A DNA stretch of 44,819 bases from a virus: positions 1-44,819 of the IMG/VR virus record IMGVR_UViG_3300027759_000149; one strand, 5' to 3'. A program made the translations under genes and the position numbers. Numbering within the stretch: the stretch's first letter is position 1; the number at the start of each line of letters is the position of its first letter. The notes beneath the pieces are model-generated. The model saw only the letters and a list, made by a program, of their open reading frames with translations, did not search any database and was not told where the DNA came from. Below, one piece after another: positions 9,358-42,132 of this stretch.

Positions 9358-10593
9358 ATGAAAGATTACAAATTACTTATAAAGTTTCCAACACGGAGCA
9401 GACCAGAAAAATTTTTTAATATTCTAGATGAGTATTATAAATTATTAAAAAAACCAAATTATGAATTTGTCGTATCATGCGATATTGATGATTTATCGAT
9501 GAATAACGATGTTGTAAAACAGAAGTTAGATACTTATCCAAATCTTAAATATTATTTTGATAATAATAAATCAAAAATACAAGCAGTAAATAATAATTTA
9601 TCGGATAAAATTTTTGATATAGTCCTTTTGGCATCGGACGACATGCTTCCAATAGTAGAAGGATATGATGAAATTATAAGACAAAGGATGGAAGAAAATT
9701 TCCCAGATACTGACGGTGTTTTATGGTTTAATGACGGGTTCCAAGGACAAAATTTAAATACTTTATCTATATTAGGTAAGAAGTACTATGATAGATTTAA
9801 TTATCTTTATCACCCAGCATATAGATCATTGTATCCAGACACAGAATTTACTATAGTAAGTCAACAATTAAAAAAAGCAAAATATTTTGATGAAATTATT
9901 ATAAAACATATTCAGTATTCTATAGTCAAAGAAACACCAGATGAATTATATTTGAGGAATGATAGTTTGGAAAGTGTTGATAGAGCTGTATTTCTCGATA
10001 GAAAAAGTAGGAATTTTGATTTAAATTCTATAAAATTTTCTATAATGATTTGCTCTTTAAAGGCTAGAAAAAAATATCTAGAAAGACTATTAAATATTTT
10101 AAAACCCCAAAAGACGAACGAAGTCGAAGTATTATGTTTGATAGATGAAGGAGAGTTATCTATTGGAGCAAAGAGACAAAAATTATTAAATTCTTCTAAA
10201 GGAAAATATGTAGCATTTATTGATGATGATGATCTCATTTCTGATGATTATGTAAAGTTGATCCTAGAAGGAATAGATAAAAACCCAGATGTTATAGGTA
10301 TTCATTTGATCATGAATACCGATGGGAAATTGTCTGGGAAGACGTATCACTCACTTAAGTATGATCATTGGTTTGATAAGAATGGTGATGATCCTTCGTG
10401 GAGATATTACTATAGAAATCCAAATCATCTAAATCCAATTAAAAGAGAGTTGGCTATGAAATCAAAGTATCCTAATATTAGTAATGGTGAAGATAGAGTC
10501 TTCTCTATGAACGTATTACCATTTTTGAAGACAGAACATTATATAGAAAGTCCTATATATTTTTACGAGGTAAGATCACATAAAGAAGTATGA
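9358..10593 (+). CDS. two-domain GT-A glycosyltransferase
   Basis: The 411 residues look like two GT-A domains in tandem. The first starts LLIKFPTRSRPEKF and has an SDD motif (93-95). The second starts near residue 225 (KFSIMICSLKARKKYLERLL) and has an acidic FIDDDDLIS motif near 285. Two catalytic domains in one chain could add two sugars in sequence or alternate linkages. The stop overlaps the next start (ATGA). Confidence 0.65.
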   Translation: MKDYKLLIKFPTRSRPEKFFNILDEYYKLLKKPNYEFVVSCDIDDLSMNNDVVKQKLDTYPNLKYYFDNNKSKIQAVNNNLSDKIFDIVLLASDDMLPIVEGYDEIIRQRMEENFPDTDGVLWFNDGFQGQNLNTLSILGKKYYDRFNYLYHPAYRSLYPDTEFTIVSQQLKKAKYFDEIIIKHIQYSIVKETPDELYLRNDSLESVDRAVFLDRKSRNFDLNSIKFSIMICSLKARKKYLERLLNILKPQKTNEVEVLCLIDEGELSIGAKRQKLLNSSKGKYVAFIDDDDLISDDYVKLILEGIDKNPDVIGIHLIMNTDGKLSGKTYHSLKYDHWFDKNGDDPSWRYYYRNPNHLNPIKRELAMKSKYPNISNGEDRVFSMNVLPFLKTEHYIESPIYFYEVRSHKEV

Positions 10594-11489
10594 AAATAGA
10601 AAATGTATCAGATAGTTATATAATTTCTAATTATGGTGGAGGAGTAAACACCAAAGAATATTATTATTATTGTGTTAATTTAATTAAAAATTTTTTATGT
10701 GATACTGAATCAAAATATAATATTTTTTTAAGTACTCATGCTCATGATTTAAACAATTCAAATAAATCAATCAGTATTGACATACAGTTTGAACATACTT
10801 TAGTTAGAAATGGAGGAAGAGGTGTACACCATATAATACATGGAACATCAAAATATGATGATAACGAATGTTATCTAGTGAGAATTGATCGGTATGAATA
10901 TTTAAAAAATCTGGATTTCATAATAGAATATAGTTTATCTAATTATTTTAATATACTAAATAGCGGATTTTTTGATGAATTCTGCAAGAAATTAATATGC
11001 ATACATCCTATGATATATAATATTAATTTTGATAGAAAAACCAAAAAGGATGTAATAACTTTATATACATTAGAAAATCACGAAAGAAGAGCAAGAATTC
11101 ATAATCAAATACTTGACTTAAACATAAATTACAAAAATATAGATAATATATTTTCTGGAGAAGAAATAATAGAGTTATATAAAAACTCAAAAATTTTAGT
11201 AAACATTCATCAGACCGAACATCATCACACATTTGAAGAACTTAGAACTTTGCCAGCATTATTAAATGGAGTTATAGTAATAAGTGAAAGATCTGGTTTA
11301 ACAGATTGTATTCCGTATGGAAAATATATAATATGGTGTGAGTATCATGAAATAAAAGATAAAGTGAAAGAAGTGTATGAAAATTATGATTATTATTATA
11401 ATAAGATATTTTCTGATGAATCTTTATTGCAGATTTTAAAAAATATGGAAATTCATAATAATAACATTCTAAAAAATTTTATAAAATGA
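10590..11489 (+). CDS. GT-B-like glycosyltransferase
   Basis: This 299-residue protein resembles the C-terminal half of GT-B enzymes. It has ELYKNSKILVNIH, then EELRTLPALLNGVIVISERSGLTDCIPYGKYIIWCEYHE, which matches the donor-binding EalacG.PVv..d.gg.....g pattern. The N-terminal domain is short and divergent. It is placed between GT-A genes and overlaps both neighbours by 4 bases, so the cassette combines both glycosyltransferase folds. Confidence 0.55.
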   Translation: MKIENVSDSYIISNYGGGVNTKEYYYYCVNLIKNFLCDTESKYNIFLSTHAHDLNNSNKSISIDIQFEHTLVRNGGRGVHHIIHGTSKYDDNECYLVRIDRYEYLKNLDFIIEYSLSNYFNILNSGFFDEFCKKLICIHPMIYNINFDRKTKKDVITLYTLENHERRARIHNQILDLNINYKNIDNIFSGEEIIELYKNSKILVNIHQTEHHHTFEELRTLPALLNGVIVISERSGLTDCIPYGKYIIWCEYHEIKDKVKEVYENYDYYYNKIFSDESLLQILKNMEIHNNNILKNFIK

Positions 11490-12235
11490 AAAATTATAAT
11501 ATAGCGATCACAACATTCTCTAAAAGATTTGATTATTTAAAAAAATTGTTAGAACAAATAAGAACATATTCTAATAATAAGATTCATTTGATAATAAATG
11601 GAGAAAGGGATGGAAATTTTAATGAAACTTATAGAAAGGATATATTGAATATATGTTCAAATTATGATTTTATATATCCTGTTTTCTTTACTGAGATACG
11701 AGGTCTTACAAAGATGTGGAATACTTCATTGATATTTTCTAATGAAGATGATGTTTTGGTATTAAATGATGATATAGAAATACATTCAGTTGACATCTTT
11801 AATAAAGCAACTGCAATAATAAACAATTCAAAATATAAGGGTTTATGTCGATTGAATGGAAGTTTTTCACATTTCGTAGCAAATAAAAATGTTATAGGAT
11901 CTATTGGATATTTTGATGAAAGATTGTTGGGGTTTGGGGAAGAAGACGGAGACATAATTTATAGATTAATGAAACATAGAATATCTTTAAATGATGCTCC
12001 AGTTTTTGGTTTAGCTAATATAGTTTGTGATGTAAAACATGAAGATGTTAAAGGACATTCTAATAGCAAGTATTCACAATTTAATAGAGATTTTATATAC
12101 ACACAAAAATACGGAAAAGATTATAGTTCTAAACTTCAAGGAATGTTCGACTATCCGATGAAAGAATTATTAGAAAATGTTAAACAATATCCTTACGAAG
12201 AATTCTTTAAGGATAATAAGCACAAATTATTTTAA
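11486..12235 (+). CDS. GT-A (family 2-like) glycosyltransferase
   Basis: This 249-residue protein has the GT-A start NIAITTFSKRFDYLKKLL, a metal motif NDD at 94-96 (LVLNDDIEI), and a GFGEEDGDIIYRL segment (about 150-162) that matches the acceptor-side ED motif of family 2 enzymes. It is one of the clearest glycosyltransferases in the cassette. The next gene starts one base after its stop. Confidence 0.75.
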   Translation: MKNYNIAITTFSKRFDYLKKLLEQIRTYSNNKIHLIINGERDGNFNETYRKDILNICSNYDFIYPVFFTEIRGLTKMWNTSLIFSNEDDVLVLNDDIEIHSVDIFNKATAIINNSKYKGLCRLNGSFSHFVANKNVIGSIGYFDERLLGFGEEDGDIIYRLMKHRISLNDAPVFGLANIVCDVKHEDVKGHSNSKYSQFNRDFIYTQKYGKDYSSKLQGMFDYPMKELLENVKQYPYEEFFKDNKHKLF

Positions 12236-12236
12236 T

Positions 12237-12944
12237 ATGAAACAATGTATAATACGTCAACCAGCAGGGATGGGTGATATTTTTGTCTGTCAAAAAATAG
12301 CTTTAAAGATTTCTGAGAAATATAAAATACCAGTAATATGGCCCGTGATAAAGGAATATTCTTATATAAAAGATTATATTAAAAACGACATCAAATTTAT
12401 TGATGAAAATGATTCGTTTGAATTTAAAGATTTGTATTTAAATTCAACTAGATTAGTGGATAACGAGAATGTTTTATTTATACCATTACACAACGATTCG
12501 TATCATGCAACTATGGATTGTAAAATATTTGAAAAGAAATATAATAGACTTGGATTGAATTGTCATGATTGGTTAGATTATTTTAATTTTCAAAGAAATA
12601 AAGAAAGAGAAGATCATTTATTTTACGATATTTTAAAATTAAAAGATGGTGATAAGTATAATTTAGTGAATCGTATTTACGCATCTCTACCTAATTCAAT
12701 TGTAGCTAACTTTGAGTATCCTAAAGATAAAAAAGTAATAGAAATAAAATTTTACGAAGGTATAAATGTTTTTGATTGGTGTAAGGTTTTTGAAAATGCT
12801 CATGAAATATATACTACAGATACTTGTTATATCTTATTGGCAGAAAAATTAAAATGTAGTACTCTTAATATCTTTTCAAGAAGAACTGGAAATTGGAGTG
12901 AAATAGATTATATATTAAATAAAAATTTCAACAAATTATATTAA
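12237..12944 (+). CDS. GT9/heptosyltransferase-like protein
   Basis: From ATG 12237 the protein is 235 residues. It starts with a GxGD turn (RQPAGMGDIFVCQKIA) like that of ADP-heptose:LPS transferases and related GT-B enzymes. The C-terminal ENAHEIYTTDTCYILLAEKLK resembles the family donor-site stretch. A longer frame starting at 12177 lies inside the preceding gene and is rejected. It is shorter than typical GT9 enzymes (about 330), so the N-terminal domain may be reduced. Confidence 0.5.
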   Translation: MKQCIIRQPAGMGDIFVCQKIALKISEKYKIPVIWPVIKEYSYIKDYIKNDIKFIDENDSFEFKDLYLNSTRLVDNENVLFIPLHNDSYHATMDCKIFEKKYNRLGLNCHDWLDYFNFQRNKEREDHLFYDILKLKDGDKYNLVNRIYASLPNSIVANFEYPKDKKVIEIKFYEGINVFDWCKVFENAHEIYTTDTCYILLAEKLKCSTLNIFSRRTGNWSEIDYILNKNFNKLY

Positions 12945-26525: not shown

Positions 26526-27191
26526 ATGTCATTAAGATTGATCGTTGAAAAACCAGCTCCAGAAGAAGAATTCGAATATATTGTCGAAGAGAAGGATCGC
26601 AACAGTCCTTCGTCTCTTTTTATTAAGGGGCCTTATATGATGGCTGAAAATTATAATAGAAACAATCGTCTATATCGTTTGGAAGAAATGGTTAACGAGG
26701 TAAGTCGTTATAAAACAGAAATGATCAAAACTAATCGTGCTTTAGGGACATTAAATCACGAAAGCAGTGCAGAAGTTAATTTGGATAGAGTATGTCATAT
26801 AGTAACTGATCTTTATCAAGAAGGTAATGTTTTTCATGGTAAGAGTAAAGTGCTAACTACTCCTAGTGGACATATTGTAAGAGCACTTATTAACGATGGC
26901 GTAAAAGTTGGTATGAGTTCCAGAGCTTTAGGGCAACTTGTAGAAGCTTCTGGTGGTAAAAATATTGTTAAAGATTTTCGTTTAATATCAATTGATTGCG
27001 TTGCTGATCCTAGTTTTCCTAAAGCTTTCGTAAATGGTATCCTAGAATCTAAACAATGGGTATTAGGAGAGTCTGGTCAATTCGAAGAAGTATATGCTGA
27101 TTTTGAAAATAGCATATCAAAACTACCAAAGGTTCAAGTAGAACAATATTTGAAAGAATGTATATTAAACTTCTTAAATAAAATTAAGTAA
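26526..27191 (+). CDS. 21: prohead core protease gp21-like
   Basis: This is the T4-type prohead protease. Landmarks are FIKGPYMMAENYNRNNRLY, LGTLNHESSAEVNLDRV with His and a nearby Glu, and GVKVGMSSRALGQL with the serine nucleophile region, then SIDCVADPSFP. In T4 the enzyme cuts after (L/I)-x-E in scaffold, capsid and internal proteins during maturation. The 221-residue length is close to T4 gp21 (212). The MSLRLIVE-K start could itself be a self-cleavage site. Confidence 0.88.
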   Translation: MSLRLIVEKPAPEEEFEYIVEEKDRNSPSSLFIKGPYMMAENYNRNNRLYRLEEMVNEVSRYKTEMIKTNRALGTLNHESSAEVNLDRVCHIVTDLYQEGNVFHGKSKVLTTPSGHIVRALINDGVKVGMSSRALGQLVEASGGKNIVKDFRLISIDCVADPSFPKAFVNGILESKQWVLGESGQFEEVYADFENSISKLPKVQVEQYLKECILNFLNKIK

Positions 27192-33864: not shown

Positions 33865-34941
33865 ATGGCTGATATAAAGAATACTCAAGAATTTGAAAAG
33901 GGTAATCAGGAAGAAGTTTTATTAAAAGTATCAGAGAATTTATTACCAATCGAACAGCAAATCAAGGCTGGTGGTGATCAGCATATCACATACGAAAAAA
34001 ATAAGTATGAACATATCGGTTCTGTTACAAATCAATTCCCCCCTATTCGTGTAGATGTACAAGGCAAGTTCAGACCTAAGTCTGTAGATATATCTGGTAA
34101 GGGATCTTTTGTTAATTATCAGCCAGTATCATATACTGAAGAAGTAGAAAATACTAGATTCCCTTGTGGAACATATTCTGTAATGGTAGGAAACAGATAT
34201 GATTTAAGTGTAGGTAATGGAGGTATAGGATTTTCTACTGGTGGTGGAATGCGAATAGCTGCGGGTGGTAGAGCAAACATAACTTCAACCAAGGAAGTTA
34301 ATATAGCATCTGGTGAAGGTAATGTAGATATTAAAGCTGCACAGAATTTATCTCTAGAAGCAGACTCGATGAATTTAACTTGCCCTAATCAAGTTGTAGT
34401 TGATTGTAATTTAGGAGTAACTAGGAATGCCATTATTAATGGATGTGCTTTTATTGATGGTGAAGTATATTTACATCACGTAACATGTCCAGCAGAAGTA
34501 CAATATACTGGTGGTGGTATTGGTAGCTTTGGTCAATTGATGACGGGAGCTGGTCCAGGTGGTTCTGAAAAAGGTGGTGGAGGTACTACTGTTATAGGAT
34601 ATGCAGATGTAAGCTTTATAAAAGATATGCTTACACGCCCCTTAGCAGATTCTAGGGGAGACGTTCATGCATATTCTTGGAATGGGCCAGATAAAGTTCC
34701 CGTCCTTGTTTTATCTGAGGGAGGTACACCATTAGCATCTAGTGCTGGTAATGGAGGATCAAAATCAAACCCAACATTTTCTGTATTTGTATATCCACAC
34801 GAACATCCATTTAATAATATTCCAATTACATTTACAACTGGAAATGAGCAAATGAGAGGTGCTGCTTCTGGATTAAATAATTCAACATCAGCGGGAAATG
34901 CTAAACCTATTGTAAATGGCTACAAGGTTCCTGGCGGTTAG
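33865..34941 (+). CDS. beta-helical baseplate/spike structural protein
   Basis: This 358-residue protein has short repeating strands (NITSTKEVNIASGEGNVDIKAAQNLSLEADS) of the kind that form a trimeric beta-helix needle. Glycine-rich loops follow, and a C-terminal HEHPF motif could bind metal. It follows the gp5-like gene and may be a second part of the spike. Its 3' end overlaps the convergent thyX gene by 35 bases. Confidence 0.55.
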   Translation: MADIKNTQEFEKGNQEEVLLKVSENLLPIEQQIKAGGDQHITYEKNKYEHIGSVTNQFPPIRVDVQGKFRPKSVDISGKGSFVNYQPVSYTEEVENTRFPCGTYSVMVGNRYDLSVGNGGIGFSTGGGMRIAAGGRANITSTKEVNIASGEGNVDIKAAQNLSLEADSMNLTCPNQVVVDCNLGVTRNAIINGCAFIDGEVYLHHVTCPAEVQYTGGGIGSFGQLMTGAGPGGSEKGGGGTTVIGYADVSFIKDMLTRPLADSRGDVHAYSWNGPDKVPVLVLSEGGTPLASSAGNGGSKSNPTFSVFVYPHEHPFNNIPITFTTGNEQMRGAASGLNNSTSAGNAKPIVNGYKVPGG

Positions 34942-35728
34942 TATTCTCCATTATAGTTCTATATTGAATCCATTGACAGAAATTAGCATGTACTCCAAAA
35001 GTAGCTTGGGCCGAATGTTCCAAAGGACTGAAATGTCCTTCCTTCAACAACTGATCATGTAGAGTATAATCTCTATCATAATTAATAATACCATCAAAAG
35101 TTTTATAAGAAACTCTGGCTGCTCTAGCTGTAGCTATTTTAAGTTTTTGTTCAATTGATAAACCATCTGTAAATCTATCACCGAATGGTATATGCCAATC
35201 TCCATTTTTTAGTTCTTTAGGAGAACTAGCTTTCATGGCATCTTGCATTTTATATGCAAGTTCTCTAATTTCTGGTTGAGCTGCACTATGCGCTCTTAAC
35301 TTAAAGAAATTATCATATTCTGTAGCTGTAAGAAGAGTCTTGATATGAAAAAATGGCTCCATTAAACGGTTGGCAATTTGCTTATGGATTTTAAGATCAT
35401 TTAATTTTTTAGCATAAACAACAGCAGAATCTCTTGCTTCATTCCAAATTTGCATTGCTTTAATTTTAGTTGCTTCATCAACTTCATTATCTGCCTGCAT
35501 CCCCTTTTGGTTAGCACCCCAATGAATAGGAATAGCTGGATCTGTTAAAACATCTTCAATAAATTTTTCAATAGGAATCGCTCTTGACGAGGCTGCATTT
35601 CGACTAAACATTCTATGCGTCATTACTTCGGCATGAATGAAGCGAGGATATGTCAAAACAAAACTAGTTATCCTCTTATTTCTAGATGAAGTATTAATAC
35701 TATCAGCAACAATCTCAGCAGTGATCAT
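34907..35728 (-). CDS. thyX: FAD-dependent thymidylate synthase ThyX
   Basis: This 273-residue protein has the ThyX motif at residues 37-50, THRMFSRNAASSRA. It keeps HR..S.N..S.R of the RHRxxSxNxxSxRY consensus, with Thr for the first Arg and Ala for the last Tyr. Further conserved parts are PEIRELAYKMQDAM and EGHFSPLEHSAQA. It makes dTMP from dUMP with FAD and methylene-tetrahydrofolate. It closes a minus-strand run after clpP and supports phage DNA synthesis. Confidence 0.9.
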   Translation of the reverse strand: MITAEIVADSINTSSRNKRITSFVLTYPRFIHAEVMTHRMFSRNAASSRAIPIEKFIEDVLTDPAIPIHWGANQKGMQADNEVDEATKIKAMQIWNEARDSAVVYAKKLNDLKIHKQIANRLMEPFFHIKTLLTATEYDNFFKLRAHSAAQPEIRELAYKMQDAMKASSPKELKNGDWHIPFGDRFTDGLSIEQKLKIATARAARVSYKTFDGIINYDRDYTLHDQLLKEGHFSPLEHSAQATFGVHANFCQWIQYRTIMENTNRQEPCSHLQ

Positions 35729-35769: not shown

Positions 35770-36402
35770 TTAGACAATACCATCTACTAGGCCATATTTC
35801 AGACAAGTTGACGAGTCAAACCAAATATCTCTTTTTAATATGTTGTCTAATTCTTTCATGGGAATTTTAGTATATTCTTTATATAAAGATTTAATAACTC
35901 CCATGATTCTACGGTTATTTTCGTTTTCGTCTTGTAGACGCTCAAAAGTTCCAGCACAAACAGAACTTAATTGATGGATTAACATAAATCCATTTTTACC
36001 AATAAATCTTTTTTTACCAACAATACTAATAAGAGTCGATGCGCTTGCAGCAGCGCCTTCCACATAAGTATAAACTTTTGTTTTCATACTTCTAATAGTA
36101 TCTACTGAAGATAGACCAGCTAAAACATCTCCTCCATAACTATGAATTCTTAGATGTATTGTCGGATCAAATTCCGAATCATTCATAGTTATTTTAGCAT
36201 GTTGCATTCTTATATCCAATTCTCTAAGCAATCTATTTAATTCGCTGCAACTAGATCCAGATATTTCTGCATAGAAATGTATTGTATTATCCAATGCTTT
36301 GATAGATCCATTAGGAAGCAAGAGATCTGACGTTGGTAATGATTGAGGTGTTTCCTTGAATAATTCTTCCTCAAATTCTTCAGACCCCCAATATTTTTTC
36401 AT
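35770..36402 (-). CDS. clpP: ClpP-like serine protease
   Basis: The 210 residues carry the ClpP fold: LRIHSYGGDVLAG, VEGAAASASTLIS with nucleophile Ser120, FMLIHQ with His143, and LKRDIWFDSSTCLKYGLVDGI with Asp192. The spacing of 23 and 49 residues fits the Ser-His-Asp triad of ClpP. A gp21-type prohead protease is already present, so this may act in host takeover or protein turnover, with host ClpX or alone. The first 35 residues are an acidic extension. Confidence 0.85.
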   Translation of the reverse strand: MKKYWGSEEFEEELFKETPQSLPTSDLLLPNGSIKALDNTIHFYAEISGSSCSELNRLLRELDIRMQHAKITMNDSEFDPTIHLRIHSYGGDVLAGLSSVDTIRSMKTKVYTYVEGAAASASTLISIVGKKRFIGKNGFMLIHQLSSVCAGTFERLQDENENNRRIMGVIKSLYKEYTKIPMKELDNILKRDIWFDSSTCLKYGLVDGIV

Positions 36403-36409
36403 ATGTTAT

Positions 36410-36417
36410 TATTTATT
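36410..36417 (-). promoter_or_regulatory. late-promoter-like AATAAATA
   Basis: On the minus strand it lies 7 bases before the clpP start at 36402 and overlaps the stop of the PAS gene. Confidence 0.45.
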
Positions 36418-36976
36418 ATAAAACCCGAGAAAGTCCAAGTATGAAAATCCTTTTACCATCTTCATCATCAACATCAATAGCAGTGCATTTCACTTTTGAT
36501 ATTAATCCAGTAACACGATGTTGATATCTGAAAATTTCTTCGAAAGGAGTATTATATGTAATCATATTATGCCACTTTTTTTGTATATTTTGTCTATCAT
36601 CTATATGAACTGATAATAACCAGTGATGACCAGAAGCATCATCCTCAGATAATCCAGTAAGAGATGTCCATTTACTATTTACTTTTATACATCTACCTTC
36701 TGCGTCACATACAAATTGTGCTAGCTCTAAAGTATCTAATATAGAATTTACAAGTTTACTATTTAATTTTATCTCATGATAGATATCTTTTTGCATATCC
36801 TTTATCTTTACAACTAACTCAGGCGTCTCTTTTATTAAACGAATCAAATTATAGGTATCAGTTTTTTTAAAGAATTTTGAAGAAAATTTATAAAATGCGT
36901 ATAAAGATCCTATTATGGCTATACAATAATAAATTGTGTTAACATTGGATGATGTGAGTATATATAACGAATTCAT
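36416..36976 (-). CDS. membrane-anchored PAS-domain protein
   Basis: This 186-residue protein has one N-terminal membrane span (about residues 14-32, NTIYYCIAIIGSLYAFYKF), a helical linker and a C-terminal PAS domain (about 80-186). The PAS landmarks are AQFVCDAEGRCIKVNSKWTSLTGLSEDDASGHHWLLSVHIDDR. PAS domains sense ligands, redox or light, but no output domain is attached. It may alter host sensing or report on the membrane state. It lies between a small membrane protein and clpP. Confidence 0.7.
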   Translation of the reverse strand: MNSLYILTSSNVNTIYYCIAIIGSLYAFYKFSSKFFKKTDTYNLIRLIKETPELVVKIKDMQKDIYHEIKLNSKLVNSILDTLELAQFVCDAEGRCIKVNSKWTSLTGLSEDDASGHHWLLSVHIDDRQNIQKKWHNMITYNTPFEEIFRYQHRVTGLISKVKCTAIDVDDEDGKRIFILGLSRVL

Positions 36977-36980
36977 TTAA

Positions 36981-37241
36981 TTATTTGTTTAAATTATCGT
37001 TTGTAATTTCAGTTAATAAATTATTCTGAGAATTATTATTATCTGAAATAGTAGTATCTAAGAATGCTTTTATGGAGATGAGTCCAGGGAGTAGAGATTT
37101 GAATGTAATTTTAATCCAATCTAAATTAGAAATTTCTCCTAAATCATGTACATTTATAGCATCTAATAAAGAAACGAATGATATAATTCCACTTACAATA
37201 ACATATAAAGACATTTTTGCTATTAACTTCCATGTATGCAT
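36981..37241 (-). CDS. small two-span membrane protein, holin-like
   Basis: This 86-residue protein has two hydrophobic segments (MSLYVIVSGIISFVSLLDAI and SLLPGLISIKAFLDTTI) joined by a short polar turn, with a polar Asn-rich C-terminus. Size and topology suit a class II holin, but many small phage membrane proteins look alike. It precedes the PAS gene by 4 bases, so the two are probably expressed together. Confidence 0.5.
   Translation of the reverse strand: MHTWKLIAKMSLYVIVSGIISFVSLLDAINVHDLGEISNLDWIKITFKSLLPGLISIKAFLDTTISDNNNSQNNLLTEITNDNLNK
36982..36989 (-). promoter_or_regulatory. variant late-promoter-like AACAAATA
   Basis: This has one change from the TAAATA core and ends 5 bases before the PAS start at 36976. 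It lies inside the end of the upstream gene. Confidence 0.25.
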
Positions 37242-37247
37242 ATATAT

Positions 37248-37255
37248 TATTTATC
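37248..37255 (-). promoter_or_regulatory. late-promoter-like GATAAATA
   Basis: On the minus strand it lies 6 bases before the ATG at 37241, just after the terminator of the RNR operon. Confidence 0.5.
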
Positions 37256-37265
37256 CAAAAACATA

Positions 37266-37299
37266 ACAAAAAGGGATTAGATATTTAATCTAATCCCTT
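37266..37299 (-). terminator. rho-independent terminator of RNR operon
   Basis: A perfect 12-bp stem (37271-37282 with 37288-37299) closes a 5-base loop. On the minus strand it is followed by a run of T. It lies downstream of the 52-residue membrane protein gene. Confidence 0.8.
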
Positions 37300-37322
37300 C
37301 TGTTGCAACATTTTTCATTAAA

Positions 37323-37481
37323 TCACCAATGTCTTATAACACCAGATATAATAAAAATGCATGTTATTATATGCATAAGCCACCAAAATGTTCTAATAAT
37401 GGCAGCTATATCTGACTGGGTATTGTCTTCTGCTATTTTATTACCCATTGTTTTACACCAAATCTCCCAGATATTTTTCAT
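37323..37481 (-). CDS. 52-residue membrane protein
   Basis: A short frame reads MKNIWEIWCKTMGNKIAED, then a hydrophobic span WWLMHIITCIFIISGVI and ends RHW. Its ATG overlaps the stop of the upstream gene in ATGA. I recall similar small proteins with an IRTxW...H..TC.FI(I) span in other T4-like marine phages. The function is unknown. It is the last gene before a strong terminator. Confidence 0.6.
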   Translation of the reverse strand: MKNIWEIWCKTMGNKIAEDNTQSDIAAIIRTFWWLMHIITCIFIISGVIRHW

Positions 37482-37702
37482 GGATTTGTAATCTTATCAG
37501 CTATGTCTTGAATAGATTGTCTTTTTTTTCCTTCTACTTTTTGAGCATATTCATTAAGCATCCTAAATGCATACTCGATCCTAACCCAAGATAAACTAAT
37601 ATTATCTATCTTAGGTGTTTCTATATTACCATCATTTATACAATAAAGCAATACAGATATTTCGTCTGGACTTAATCTATTTAATTTATGAGTAGGTATC
37701 AT
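37478..37702 (-). CDS. small hypothetical protein
   Basis: This 74-residue soluble, helical protein lies directly downstream of nrdA, one base after its stop. The segment RIEYAFRMLNEYAQKVEGKKRQSIQDIADKI looks like a helical pair. No family is recognised. Its stop overlaps the next ATG, so it belongs to the RNR operon. Confidence 0.55.
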   Translation of the reverse strand: MIPTHKLNRLSPDEISVLLYCINDGNIETPKIDNISLSWVRIEYAFRMLNEYAQKVEGKKRQSIQDIADKITNP

Positions 37703-37703
37703 A

Positions 37704-39347
37704 TTAAGCTTCGCAACTCTTACAATTCATTATTGACCTGGCAAGCTCTTGGGCTGGGTTTGCGCTACGCTGGTAGTATAGACTTTTAATTCCCATTTCC
37801 CATGCGAAAACCATAAGTTCATTTACTTCTTTTGGTTTTGTATTAGGAGGAATCATGATATTTAGACTCTGTCCTTGATCAATATACTTCTGTCTTTGTG
37901 AAGCTTGTATTACAATTTCCTTTTGGCTAATCTCACCAAAAGTTTTATATATATCCTTTTCTTCTTGTGATAAGAAATCTAAATGTTGAACGCTTCCCCC
38001 TTTCACCAAGATACCTCTCCATACATCATCAGTATCTTGATTTTTTTCTTGTAATAAAGATTTTAGATATGGGTTTCTAAACGTGAATTTTCCTTTAGAA
38101 AGGTCCTTAACATAGTAATTAGAATTAAGAGGTTCAACGCTAGGGGATACTTGTCCTAGAATAAACGAACTAGAAGTAGTAGGAGCCACTGCTAGTGTAG
38201 TGGTATTTCTACGTCCATATCCTTTTAATAAAGGAGCTTCTCCAAATTTATCTGCTAAATCACAGGTAGCTTGATCTGCTTGTTGTCTGATAAATTTCCA
38301 GACTTCTACGTTCAGAAATTTAGCGTCCATGCTTTCAAATGCTATATTCTTCTTTTGAAGAAGTGAATGCCATCCCAATACACCCAATCCTAGTGCTCTA
38401 TGATTAACAGCAAAGTTTCTAGGTGCTTGCATGTACTTATCATTTTCTGTTTTATCAATAAATTCAGTCATTACTGCATCAAGAAAATGAATCATGACTT
38501 GCACAGCATCAGTGTTCTTCCATTCATCCCATGTTTCGAGATTCATAGAAGCCAAATTACAAACAAATGACTCGTCTTTATTATTTGGTAAATTTATTTC
38601 CGCGCAAAGATTTGAATGTAAGATCCTCATTCCCTTGTCTTTATAAACTTGAGGAGCATTGTTATTTGCATTATCAGAAAAGAAAACGTATGGATATCCA
38701 CTTTCAAATCTCTTTTTGATAATATCACCCCATACTTTTCTTTTTTGTTTATCTCCTTCTAACATCGATTTCATCCAATCGTCTGAAACACAAACTCCAA
38801 TAGAGATATCTTGAATAGGATTACCTTCGCTTTTAATCTTTAGAAATTCTTCGATATCGGGATGATCTACTGGAAGATATGCAGCAAATGATCCTCTACG
38901 AACATTTCCTTGAGATACCACATGCATCAGCGTGTCGTAAATTTCCATGAAATGTACTGCCCCCGTAGAAACACCCCCAGAAGAAATAGCAGCACCTCGT
39001 CCACGAATATCTCCGAAATATCCTGAAGTTCCACCACCACCTTTTGTCATTATTCCTACTTCAGCAGCTTTTTCTAAGATACCTTCCATTGTGTCAGGAA
39101 TATAAGATCCGAAACAACTAATAGGCAATCCTCTTTCTCTGCCGTAATTACTCCACAGAGGACTACTTAAAGAGTAAGCTCCCATAGAAATATACTTAAT
39201 AAATTTATTATGATATTCTTCTCCTAGATATTTTTTAGCAGCATTAGCGATATCAGAAATGCGTTGTTCTGGAGTTTCATCTTTTACAAGATAACCTCTC
39301 TCCAGAAAAGTTCTAGAGTCTTTATTTAACCAATATATATTACTCAT
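37704..39347 (-). CDS. nrdA: ribonucleotide reductase large subunit, class I, no ATP-cone
   Basis: From ATG 39347 this is 547 residues. It has the radical-site motif NLCAEINLP, with ISCFGS and CNLASMNLE holding the likely redox cysteines, and a C-terminal CKSCEA tail for reduction. E. coli NrdA has 761 residues with an N-terminal ATP-cone; here that cone is absent, so overall dATP control may be missing. Specificity-site loops may remain. A frame start at 39383 lies inside nrdB and is not supported; a TAAATA motif favours 39347. Confidence 0.92.
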   Translation of the reverse strand: MSNIYWLNKDSRTFLERGYLVKDETPEQRISDIANAAKKYLGEEYHNKFIKYISMGAYSLSSPLWSNYGRERGLPISCFGSYIPDTMEGILEKAAEVGIMTKGGGGTSGYFGDIRGRGAAISSGGVSTGAVHFMEIYDTLMHVVSQGNVRRGSFAAYLPVDHPDIEEFLKIKSEGNPIQDISIGVCVSDDWMKSMLEGDKQKRKVWGDIIKKRFESGYPYVFFSDNANNNAPQVYKDKGMRILHSNLCAEINLPNNKDESFVCNLASMNLETWDEWKNTDAVQVMIHFLDAVMTEFIDKTENDKYMQAPRNFAVNHRALGLGVLGWHSLLQKKNIAFESMDAKFLNVEVWKFIRQQADQATCDLADKFGEAPLLKGYGRRNTTTLAVAPTTSSSFILGQVSPSVEPLNSNYYVKDLSKGKFTFRNPYLKSLLQEKNQDTDDVWRGILVKGGSVQHLDFLSQEEKDIYKTFGEISQKEIVIQASQRQKYIDQGQSLNIMIPPNTKPKEVNELMVFAWEMGIKSLYYQRSANPAQELARSIMNCKSCEA

Positions 39348-39352
39348 ATTTT

Positions 39353-39360
39353 TATTTAAA
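39353..39360 (-). promoter_or_regulatory. late-promoter-like TTTAAATA
   Basis: On the minus strand it ends 5 bases before the nrdA ATG at 39347 and overlaps the nrdB stop. Confidence 0.45.
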
Positions 39361-40327
39361 ATAATTCCGATTCGTCGAAACATTGATTCTTTTTAGCATA
39401 ACCAGTATCTTTTGAATGGAAAAAATCAGTCATGTTGTTGCCCAATAATTCTTCTTGAAACCACATAGTAGCAGAAAGAATATCCTTATCTACCTCAAAT
39501 ACTTGAGGAAATCCAATTTGTACTAAAGACTCGTTTATACGATCCTTTACAAACTCTTTTAAAGTAATTGCATCTAAACCTTCTTCTTTAATTCCATTGA
39601 TCATCCAATCAATAATTGCAGATTCAGATTCGAATGCTTCTTTAGCTTCTTTCACAATCTTTTGAGTAAGTTCTTCATCAAACAAATCTGGATATTCCTC
39701 ACGAATAGTATTAATTAATTTAATGCCGACTAAGGCATGAATATTTTCTTCGTTACGAGTATAACGTACTTGCTGATCTGTATCCTTTAATACATTTTTA
39801 AAACGTGCAAACCAATTTATAACATAAAACTGGCTGAACAAAGATACATTTTCTACAAATAAAGTAAAAAGAATTAATGCATATAGATATTGTTTCTTGC
39901 TATCTTTATAAAAACGATGAGTATACTTACGAAGATACTTAACTCTTCCTTCGATCCATCCCAATTTAAGATTCTCTTCGAAAACATTCTCCAAACCCAA
40001 TACAGAAATCAATCGTTCATACGCATTATTATGTATGACTTCTACATTAGCCATTACATATCCTAAATCTGATAGGCTGGGATGGGGTAAATTCTCTCCT
40101 AACTTAGCCCAGAAGGTCTTTACTGCTATCTCAATCTGACCAATCGCAGAAAGAGTTCTAATAACTATCTCCTTTTCTTTCTCTGAAAGATTAACTTTAA
40201 AGTCTTGAATATCTGAACTAAAATTAAATTCTTTATCTGTCCAAAACCCATTATGCATGGCTTCGATGAATTTATCTGTCCAAGGATAATGGTTAGGTTT
40301 ACGCGAAATTTGTTCGTCAAATATCAT
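39356..40327 (-). CDS. nrdB: ribonucleotide reductase small subunit
   Basis: This 323-residue protein carries the di-metal ligands: a first acidic ligand in QIEIAVKTFW, EVIH with Glu and His, ENVSLFSQF with Glu, and NEENIH with Glu and His. HNNAY has Tyr four residues after the His, the place of the radical tyrosine (Tyr122 in E. coli). So it should be a normal tyrosyl-radical class I subunit. It lies 8 bases upstream of nrdA in the same operon. Confidence 0.92.
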   Translation of the reverse strand: MIFDEQISRKPNHYPWTDKFIEAMHNGFWTDKEFNFSSDIQDFKVNLSEKEKEIVIRTLSAIGQIEIAVKTFWAKLGENLPHPSLSDLGYVMANVEVIHNNAYERLISVLGLENVFEENLKLGWIEGRVKYLRKYTHRFYKDSKKQYLYALILFTLFVENVSLFSQFYVINWFARFKNVLKDTDQQVRYTRNEENIHALVGIKLINTIREEYPDLFDEELTQKIVKEAKEAFESESAIIDWMINGIKEEGLDAITLKEFVKDRINESLVQIGFPQVFEVDKDILSATMWFQEELLGNNMTDFFHSKDTGYAKKNQCFDESELF

Positions 40328-40767: not shown

Positions 40768-42132
40768 TTAAGAAATGAGTTCTGTAATTACATTACCAAA
40801 GTTATCAGTAAGCCTAAATTCTCTTCCGTTGTAATTGTATGTAAGCTTTGTATGATCAAAGCCCATAAGGCGTAGAATAGTTGCATGGAGATCGTGGATA
40901 TGAACAATATCTTTTACTGCTGTTCCACCAGTTTCATCGGTTTCACCGTAACGCTGACCTCCTTTTACGTTTCCTCCAGCCATCCATACGGAGAAGGCTT
41001 TTCCGTTGTGGTCGCGTCCAGGTAGCCCCGCACCGCCGCCAGCAGTAACTGTACGACCAAATTCACCACCCCATATAACTAATACAGAATCTAATAATCC
41101 TCTCTGTTTAAGATCTGTAAGAAGTCCCGAAAATGCTTGATCATATCTAGACGCAGTAGTGGTCATAGCTCTCTTAATGTCGCTATGATGATCATAGCCA
41201 CCTACACTTACCTGAACGAAACGAACTCCTCTTTCTACTAGTCTTCTAGCTATCATCATCTTATTACCTTCTTCGTTTCTACCATAAAGATCCTTTATAT
41301 TTTCTGGTTCTTTTGTTAGGTCAAATGCATCAGTAGCTTCTGTCTGCATTTTAAATGCCGTCTCAAATGCCTCTATACGAGATTCTAACTGAATATCCTT
41401 TTGAAGTTTAGCCATATGCATTTGATTAAATTGTTTAGATAAATCTAATTGTCTTCTTTGTCTATCTAAAGTAGAAAATTCGCTACGAATGTTAGCTAGA
41501 ATTTCTTCTGCTCGCATCGTTGATCTATACTGAACATTACATCCTTGATATATAGATGGAAGAAATGCACACTGTCTCCATTCGGGAGCACCATTTAAAG
41601 ATATAAATGCTGGCATATTCTGATTTAAAGATCCTAAACCATAAGTAAGCCAACTCCCTAAACTAGGTTTTGGTAATTGTGTAGAACCAGTATTAAACAT
41701 CTTTGCAGCAATTCCATGATCTGGAATATCTGTTTGCATAGAATTGATAATAGCAATATTATCCGCATGTCGGCCTAACTTAGACCACACTTCAGATATA
41801 TTTAAACCAGATTTACCGAACTGTGGGAACTCAAAAGGAGAGGCTAATAGATTCCCAGATCCCGCTTTTTGTCCATCTCTCTTTTGTAGTTCTGGTTTAT
41901 AGTCAAAAGTATCAACATGTGATGGCGCACCCGAAGCAAAAAGTTGGATAACGGCTTTTGCTTTGACTGGAAGTGGGGGTGCCTTTGCCTCGAAAGGAGA
42001 TACAGCTTCAGCCGTTTGTGGGTCGATTCCTAACATTGCTGCTAATGATAATCCTCCAATACCCCAGCCGAAATCATTTAAAAAATCTCTTCTAGTATGG
42101 AACTCTGTTGGATGGTTTCCGCAATCTTTCAT
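40768..42132 (-). CDS. DUF1501 protein with Tat signal, host-like
   Basis: This 454-residue protein is a complete DUF1501 member. It has a twin-arginine signal (TRRDFL, 13-18, then a hydrophobic GIGGLSLAAMLG), then FASGAPSHVDTFDYKP, GGEFGRTVTAGGGAGLPGRD and FSVWMAGGNVKGGQRYG, and the C-terminal HDLHATILRLMGFDHTKL. DUF1501 proteins have an alkaline phosphatase/sulfatase-like fold and are abundant in Planctomycetota and Verrucomicrobiota; function is unknown. Its ATG follows the stop of a phage leader-bearing gene by 3 bases. No frameshift is visible. It is probably a host-derived auxiliary gene. Confidence 0.9.
   Translation of the reverse strand: MKDCGNHPTEFHTRRDFLNDFGWGIGGLSLAAMLGIDPQTAEAVSPFEAKAPPLPVKAKAVIQLFASGAPSHVDTFDYKPELQKRDGQKAGSGNLLASPFEFPQFGKSGLNISEVWSKLGRHADNIAIINSMQTDIPDHGIAAKMFNTGSTQLPKPSLGSWLTYGLGSLNQNMPAFISLNGAPEWRQCAFLPSIYQGCNVQYRSTMRAEEILANIRSEFSTLDRQRRQLDLSKQFNQMHMAKLQKDIQLESRIEAFETAFKMQTEATDAFDLTKEPENIKDLYGRNEEGNKMMIARRLVERGVRFVQVSVGGYDHHSDIKRAMTTTASRYDQAFSGLLTDLKQRGLLDSVLVIWGGEFGRTVTAGGGAGLPGRDHNGKAFSVWMAGGNVKGGQRYGETDETGGTAVKDIVHIHDLHATILRLMGFDHTKLTYNYNGREFRLTDNFGNVITELIS

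Follow-up and report, generated by a model that had tools for sequence, protein, structure and literature searches.

A conserved phage PAS protein, probably membrane-bound, encoded behind late-promoter-like signals beside ClpP in uncultured T4-like phages

Introduction

Why would a T4-like phage encode a PAS domain that has no output domain attached to it, and place its gene between one for a small membrane protein and one for the protease ClpP? The question is raised by a 44,819-base virus record, taken whole and referred to here as the window, which carries T4-type genes including those for a portal protein (phrog_213) and a major head protein (phrog_138), the latter at most 35% identical to its best-listed phage relatives, mostly cyanophages. 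An initial annotation read the three genes as a small module that senses a cell signal and affects lysis timing or host proteolysis. We have examined the domain content of the three products, the conservation of their order, and the signals in the DNA around them. The results favor a reading in which the PAS protein is the constant element, its gene usually paired with that of the small membrane protein and probably expressed late, with ClpP as a frequent but separately controlled neighbor.

Results

The three adjacent minus-strand genes are real and together fill positions 35770-37241 exactly. They encode an 86-aa small membrane protein, here called TM86 (36981-37241), a 186-aa PAS protein (36416-36976), and a 210-aa ClpP protease (35770-36402), and they lie within a longer run of minus-strand genes in the order nrdB (39356-40327), nrdA (37704-39383), a 74-aa ORF (37478-37702), a 52-aa ORF (37323-37481), TM86, PAS, ClpP, and thyX (34907-35728). 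The 52-aa ORF was absent from the initial annotation, as were a terminator and promoter-like signals described below. It encodes a one-span protein matching phrog_1679 (1e-13) and is probably a neighbor belonging to the nrd unit. Relatives of this protein occur in 193 phage records, every one named as a cyanobacterial phage, and the one in P-TIM68 lies near clamp-loader genes. Further upstream on the same strand, the window encodes a full-length DUF1501 protein (40768-42132; PF07394, 2.5e-132), an unusual gene for a phage; related ORFs of 454-456 aa are also present in contigs L003 and L004.

By both family match and fold, the central gene encodes a PAS domain protein and not a sensor kinase. 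Residues 76-184 match the Pfam families PAS_3 (3e-10), PAS_4 (4.8e-8), PAS (1.7e-7), and PAS_8, all above cut-off; the PAS_3 score is 40.7 bits for a cut-off of 25.6, and PAS_3 exceeds its cut-off in all 16 records that carry the gene, with one match per record. No other Pfam match was found in the protein, and thus no kinase, receiver, or second PAS domain. In an AlphaFold2 model, residues 12-38 and 40-82 are helical and residues 83-186 take up a PAS-like fold, where pLDDT in 10-residue blocks is 70-91; over the whole model it is 72.2 with a pTM of 0.48, the transmembrane and linker parts being of low confidence. The model matched 570 PDB chains at E <= 0.001, and the 50 listed all contain PAS or LOV domains, although a sequence profile of the phage family found no PDB chain at the same threshold. 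Inspection by eye revealed neither a LOV-type cysteine nor a FixL-type histidine. The PAS domain is the best conserved part of the protein, the commonest residue having a mean share of 0.80 as compared with 0.49 in the transmembrane helix, and Cys90, Cys96, and Cys164 are invariant across 15 alignment rows, which makes redox sensing through these residues a possible lead. The N-terminal hydrophobic helix, which a long linker helix joins to the C-terminal PAS domain, has a mean hydropathy over 19 residues of 0.93-2.20 in the family and 1.3 in the window. The proposal of a membrane-anchored PAS sensor without an output domain therefore stands as to the domain and the missing output; with an anchor prediction of moderate strength, attachment to the membrane is likely.

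TM86 had been described as a two-span membrane protein, which is no more than likely. The first of its hydrophobic segments is clear (1.46-2.16 over 19 residues across the family); the second is moderate (1.02-1.58) and contains a conserved lysine, and the AlphaFold2 model, with helices at 3-28 and 39-84, is poor (pLDDT 64.8). Used as a single query, TM86 found no relative in viral contigs and no match at E <= 10 among phage records; its relatives were reached through the PAS loci and then by alignment. Neither PHROGs nor Pfam gave a holin family match for it, and PHROG matches for the PAS protein and TM86 were weak and functionless (best 0.0074 and 0.0042), which led us to drop the assignment of either one to a known phage family.

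The reading of the third gene as a full ClpP with an intact catalytic triad holds up well. The protein matches PF00574 (CLP_protease, 6.3e-25), and alignment to a solved ClpP puts Ser120, His143, and Asp192, the last of which we take to be the catalytic aspartate, on the triad positions; all three are retained throughout a 16-row alignment. Its best PHROG is phrog_94, a head maturation protease family it shares with phage ClpP-like proteases. We nevertheless rejected capsid maturation as its main role: the window ClpP lies outside the head-gene cluster, and the same record has its own gp21-type head protease located with the head genes (26526-27191; phrog_207, 5e-55), which makes ClpP an improbable capsid protease. 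Close pairs of all three proteins are under purifying selection, with dN/dS values between contigs L010 and L011 of 0.18 for TM86 and 0.03 for both PAS and ClpP; among distant TM86 pairs the values are higher, up to 1.09, and saturated.

Scans of 2.9 million viral contigs turned up relatives of the PAS protein on 15 further contigs from uncultured phages, representing 14 distinct sequences (two contigs have identical copies) that are 42-72% identical over the alignment. A tblastn search of 50,697 phage records found nothing at E <= 0.01, and two matches at E ~10 were dismissed as spurious because they fall inside a DNA polymerase gene. That collection thus contains no credible match, in agreement with the earlier remark that standard T4 functions do not include such a PAS sensor. 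A pattern scan of 84,980 prokaryote genomes returned a single relative, the PAS region of a 921-aa protein (L076) that reads as a hybrid histidine kinase and is 32% identical over residues 67-171 (E 5e-15). These contig and genome scans rely on short exact patterns, and distant relatives may therefore have been missed.

Conservation of the gene order had been proposed as the check on the original reading, and the order is indeed conserved: TM86, PAS, and ClpP are contiguous in 12 of the 16 contigs (the window and L002-L012) while the outer neighbors vary. Unrelated ORFs lie upstream of the trio in L008, and in L009-L012 it is flanked by an Hsp20 gene on the upstream side and by a gene of the IMP dehydrogenase/GMP reductase type on the downstream side; with L024 included, 5 of 16 records have Hsp20 (PF00011) immediately ahead of TM86. 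The bonds within the trio are not equally tight. Between TM86 and PAS the spacing is -11 to +9 nt in each of the 14 contigs that carry TM86. PAS and ClpP are neighbors in 13 contigs, 8-44 nt apart, the thirteenth being L013, where PAS and ClpP occur without TM86. ClpP is separated from PAS in the other three: in L018 a 211-aa gene on the opposite strand follows TM86-PAS and precedes ClpP, in L019 a gene of the same kind lies between PAS and ClpP, with TM86 missing (the L019 copy has no Pfam match), and in L024 ClpP is 6.6 kb from TM86-PAS, beyond nrdA. Neither record lacking TM86 has a match to it elsewhere, and in L019 the end of the 52-aa ORF is followed by the hairpin, the motif, and then PAS directly, which indicates that TM86 is genuinely absent there. 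Viewed from the side of ClpP, 37 of 49 loci have neither PAS nor TM86 in the available DNA, which for some includes little upstream sequence; 11 have PAS, and one (L015) begins 127 nt before ClpP. In L026 and L027 ClpP directly follows nrdA, an arrangement suggestive of a gain or a loss of the TM86-PAS pair at this site. Taken together, the contigs suggest that PAS is the constant gene and TM86 its usual but dispensable partner. L002 encodes a 700-aa ThyX (10269-12371) with a match to an intein splicing domain (PF14890, 6.3e-16), and the long nrdA ORFs of 767-924 aa in L006, L013, and L024 may also carry inserts.

We also asked whether the anchor is more hydrophobic where TM86 is lost, as co-evolution would have it, and the contigs do not establish this: the anchor has a hydropathy of 2.20 in L013 and 1.77 in L019, both without TM86, yet it reaches 1.88 in L003, where TM86 is present.

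Just upstream of TM86 in the window, a hairpin with a T-rich tail resembling an intrinsic terminator (37269-37301, minus strand) is followed by the hexamer TAAATA (37248-37253), which ends 6 nt before the TM86 start codon and resembles a T4 late promoter. A second TAAATA (36410-36415) lies just past the PAS stop and ends 7 nt before the ClpP start codon. Of 14 contigs, 13 (all but L008) have a strong hairpin with a T-run ahead of TM86, at folding energies of -16.4 to -23.0 kcal/mol; among 300 random windows taken from a relative, 4 reach -16 kcal/mol. All 13 TM86 loci counted have TAAATA ending 5-6 nt ahead of the start codon. For L002, L003, L018, and L024 we moved the start, with the motif in view, from the position given by the ORF finder to a later in-frame ATG that follows the motif; L005, identical to L006 at this site, was excluded from the motif counts. 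The hexamer precedes ClpP by 5-9 nt in 11 of 15 cases, with a near-match in the other four (L009-L012). It is present before PAS in only 1 of 15, namely L019, where TM86 is lost and PAS leads. Among the other genes nearby, NrdB has it in 5 of 6 cases (at 8-9 nt), nrdA in 1 of 7, the 74-aa ORF in 0 of 7, and ThyX in 0 of 10. NrdB is normally an early-type gene, so its motif implies that the signal need not mean strictly late expression. Sigma-70-like promoter matches (50 versus 49.5 in shuffled sequence) were of no use as evidence.

The terminator and the TM86-upstream TAAATA, both new here, appear to separate TM86-PAS from the preceding genes (nrd genes in most contigs). Since ClpP usually has a motif of its own as well, the reading that suits the locus best is one of two late units side by side, TM86-PAS and ClpP, and not one of a single three-gene module. 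What survives of the module originally proposed is its contiguity in most contigs; the separate ClpP motif, the displacement of ClpP in three contigs, and the loss of TM86 from two argue against a single unit. These control signals suggest that the PAS protein is made late in infection.

How far can TAAATA be trusted as a promoter? PMC1524935 gives the T4 late promoter as TATAAATA, located -13 to -6 relative to the start of transcription, and describes its first base as variable in other T4-like phages, with CTAAATA in Aeh1. In the window, TATAAATA and CTAAATA occur at chance frequency (12 versus 13.2 and 17 versus 21.6), and only position before start codons, not number, sets the motif apart. 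In the window and a 236-kb relative (G002) taken together, 105 of 373 ORF starts, but only 60 of 9,667 other ATGs, are preceded by TAAATA at a distance of 4-9 nt. The distribution peaks at exactly 5 nt, the position found for 13 of 63 starts in the window, 51 of 310 in G002, and 6 of 61 in L010 and L012, as compared with 1 of 47 in cyanophage P-HM2 and 0 of 39 in a stretch of T4, where nine cases lie at 24-28 nt instead. Shine-Dalgarno-like four-mers vary in the opposite direction, preceding 3 of 63 starts in the window, 24 of 310 in G002, and 4 of 61 in L010 and L012, versus 28 of 39 in T4 and 15 of 47 in P-HM2. The features of a T4-type late promoter are present, with a TATAAATA-like element upstream, the first two bases of the octamer varying, and a homologue of the late sigma factor gp55 in 3 of 9 related records. 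In G002 the gp55-like gene (103663-104913) is interrupted by an insert that keeps the reading frame, the whole forming part of an open frame of 502 aa.

If the T4 spacing is applied to this arrangement, the transcription start would coincide with the A of the ATG. We therefore infer that these phages make leaderless late mRNAs and that their host may be independent of Shine-Dalgarno sites, both being predictions from sequence. Bacteroidetes are one group that does not rely on such sites, although the mRNAs of Flavobacterium are mostly leadered (PMC6847099). Alternatively, TAAATA may be a translation signal and not a promoter. This fits poorly with its rarity at overlapping genes (1 of 56, in part a coding-sequence constraint) and with its lower frequency in small-ORF regions of G002; at starts that follow larger gaps of 41-200 nt it is found in only 15 of 67 cases.

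The proposed effect on lysis timing finds less support in the surrounding genes. Near the locus, lysin families were found in none of the records searched (PF00959, 0 of 16; PF13539, 0 of 9; PF01510, 0 of 9), and ten small membrane ORFs or lysin candidates matched no holin or lysin PHROG. A survey of G002 compared 155 of its 171 ORFs of 105-340 aa, in lists of 75 and 80, with Pfam and gave, among the families listed, a GH46 match as the one lysin-like gene identified, roughly 149 kb from PAS; 25 of 26 and 25 of 31 matching families were listed, so other lysins may be missed, and those listed include a DPBB_1 "lytic transglycolase" match and a papain-type protease match. The absence of TM86 from L013 and L019 implies that it is no essential holin there, and together with the lack of a lysin match nearby and of any family match it leaves the idea of TM86 as the sole holin unsupported.

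Discussion

The analysis suggests a tentative model, in which the PAS protein is a late-expressed inner-membrane sensor that acts through a membrane partner and most likely times lysis; we rate it ahead of the alternatives below and still would not bet on it. According to this model, TM86-PAS forms a short unit behind a terminator that would be started from the T4-type late-promoter-like motif, the part of the scheme with direct sequence support. The N-terminal helix would anchor the PAS protein in the inner membrane, the linker helix would dimerize it, and the PAS domain would lie in the cytoplasm to read a small molecule or the redox state, perhaps through its three invariant cysteines. With no output domain of its own, the protein would have to act by touching a membrane partner, TM86 where that is present. 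In this way a membrane event late in infection, with lysis timing as the most likely candidate, would follow the state of the cell, and where TM86 is gone PAS would simply occupy its place behind the terminator and motif. Lysis is the least certain step. Late signals and a membrane location make its timing the likeliest single role, and the sensor features fit as well, so a part for PAS in timing the end of infection is possible. The distance to the GH46 gene, the absence of lysin matches nearby, and the dispensability of TM86 all weigh against this part of the original claim. The bolder version, in which a lineage-wide late PAS membrane sensor made from leaderless mRNA decides the onset of lysis with TM86 as an interchangeable effector, strikes us as unlikely.

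Several other accounts of the locus deserve consideration. The PAS protein may be a fragment of a host sensor kinase, lacking the kinase itself, which would form pairs with a PAS sensor of the host as a decoy or dominant-negative partner and so shut down or divert the signaling of that sensor. Its membrane helix, long linker, and PAS domain do resemble such a fragment, and the only cellular relative found is the PAS region of a kinase-like protein; yet that match is of a general PAS kind, late-type signals are less apt for a takeover of host signaling, and the conserved link to TM86 is left unexplained, so that we regard this role as unlikely. We would say much the same of mere proximity, with TM86-PAS and ClpP as unrelated late accessory genes sharing a site behind the nrd genes. 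The separate motifs before TM86 and ClpP, the contigs in which ClpP is separated from PAS or directly follows nrdA, and the 37 ClpP loci without detected PAS or TM86, many with little upstream DNA, are all in line with it, but coincidence does not readily explain why the trio stays contiguous in 12 contigs though its outer neighbors change.

A connection to proteolysis appears less probable than either of these. The PAS protein could be an adaptor, switched by its ligand, that delivers membrane or host proteins to the phage ClpP working with host ClpX or ClpA. The close PAS-ClpP adjacency would then be functional, the Hsp20 gene upstream of TM86 in five records would be a second proteostasis gene, and a jumbo-phage review (PMC7824862) does propose that patchily distributed proteases, ClpP among them, are turned on the host. 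Nevertheless, ClpP occurs without PAS and is unlinked to it in three contigs, the TM86-PAS bond is tighter than the PAS-ClpP bond, and Hsp20 was not found in 11 of the 16 records, most of them fragments. More doubtful still is that TM86 and PAS are membrane proteins that block the entry of a second phage. T4 Imm, a membrane protein of superinfection exclusion, is comparable to TM86 in kind and size class, and TM86 is likewise small and conserved. Superinfection exclusion is usually established early, however, whereas the signals here look late, and exclusion of this kind has no need for a PAS sensor.

The known systems nearest to the locus share some of its features and lack others. The PAS protein resembles members of the PAS superfamily in its matches (PF08447 PAS_3, PAS_4, and PAS) and modeled fold, but differs in being phage-encoded, in lacking an output domain, and in having its PAS domain C-terminal to a membrane helix; the bacterial PAS sensor histidine kinases, represented by L076, share the PAS region and have signaling domains that it does without. 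TM86 is like the two-span (class II) holins, and like further small membrane proteins of phages, in size, in its two likely hydrophobic segments, and in its late-type signal, and unlike them in lacking a holin family match, in not being beside a lysin, and in being dispensable in two contigs. The promoter-like motif shares the TAAATA core of T4 late promoters and differs from them in its spacing. Among the papers listed from the open-access PMC literature, we found none that deals with a PAS protein or module of this kind in a phage.

If the sensor model is correct, a conserved, output-less, and probably membrane-bound late PAS protein would be a viral sensor of host state in a group of obligate lytic type. 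Whether T4-like phages adjust late events to the physiology of the cell would then be testable with a single deletion. The promoter finding, for its part, has implications for the way phages operate in hosts that make no use of Shine-Dalgarno sites.
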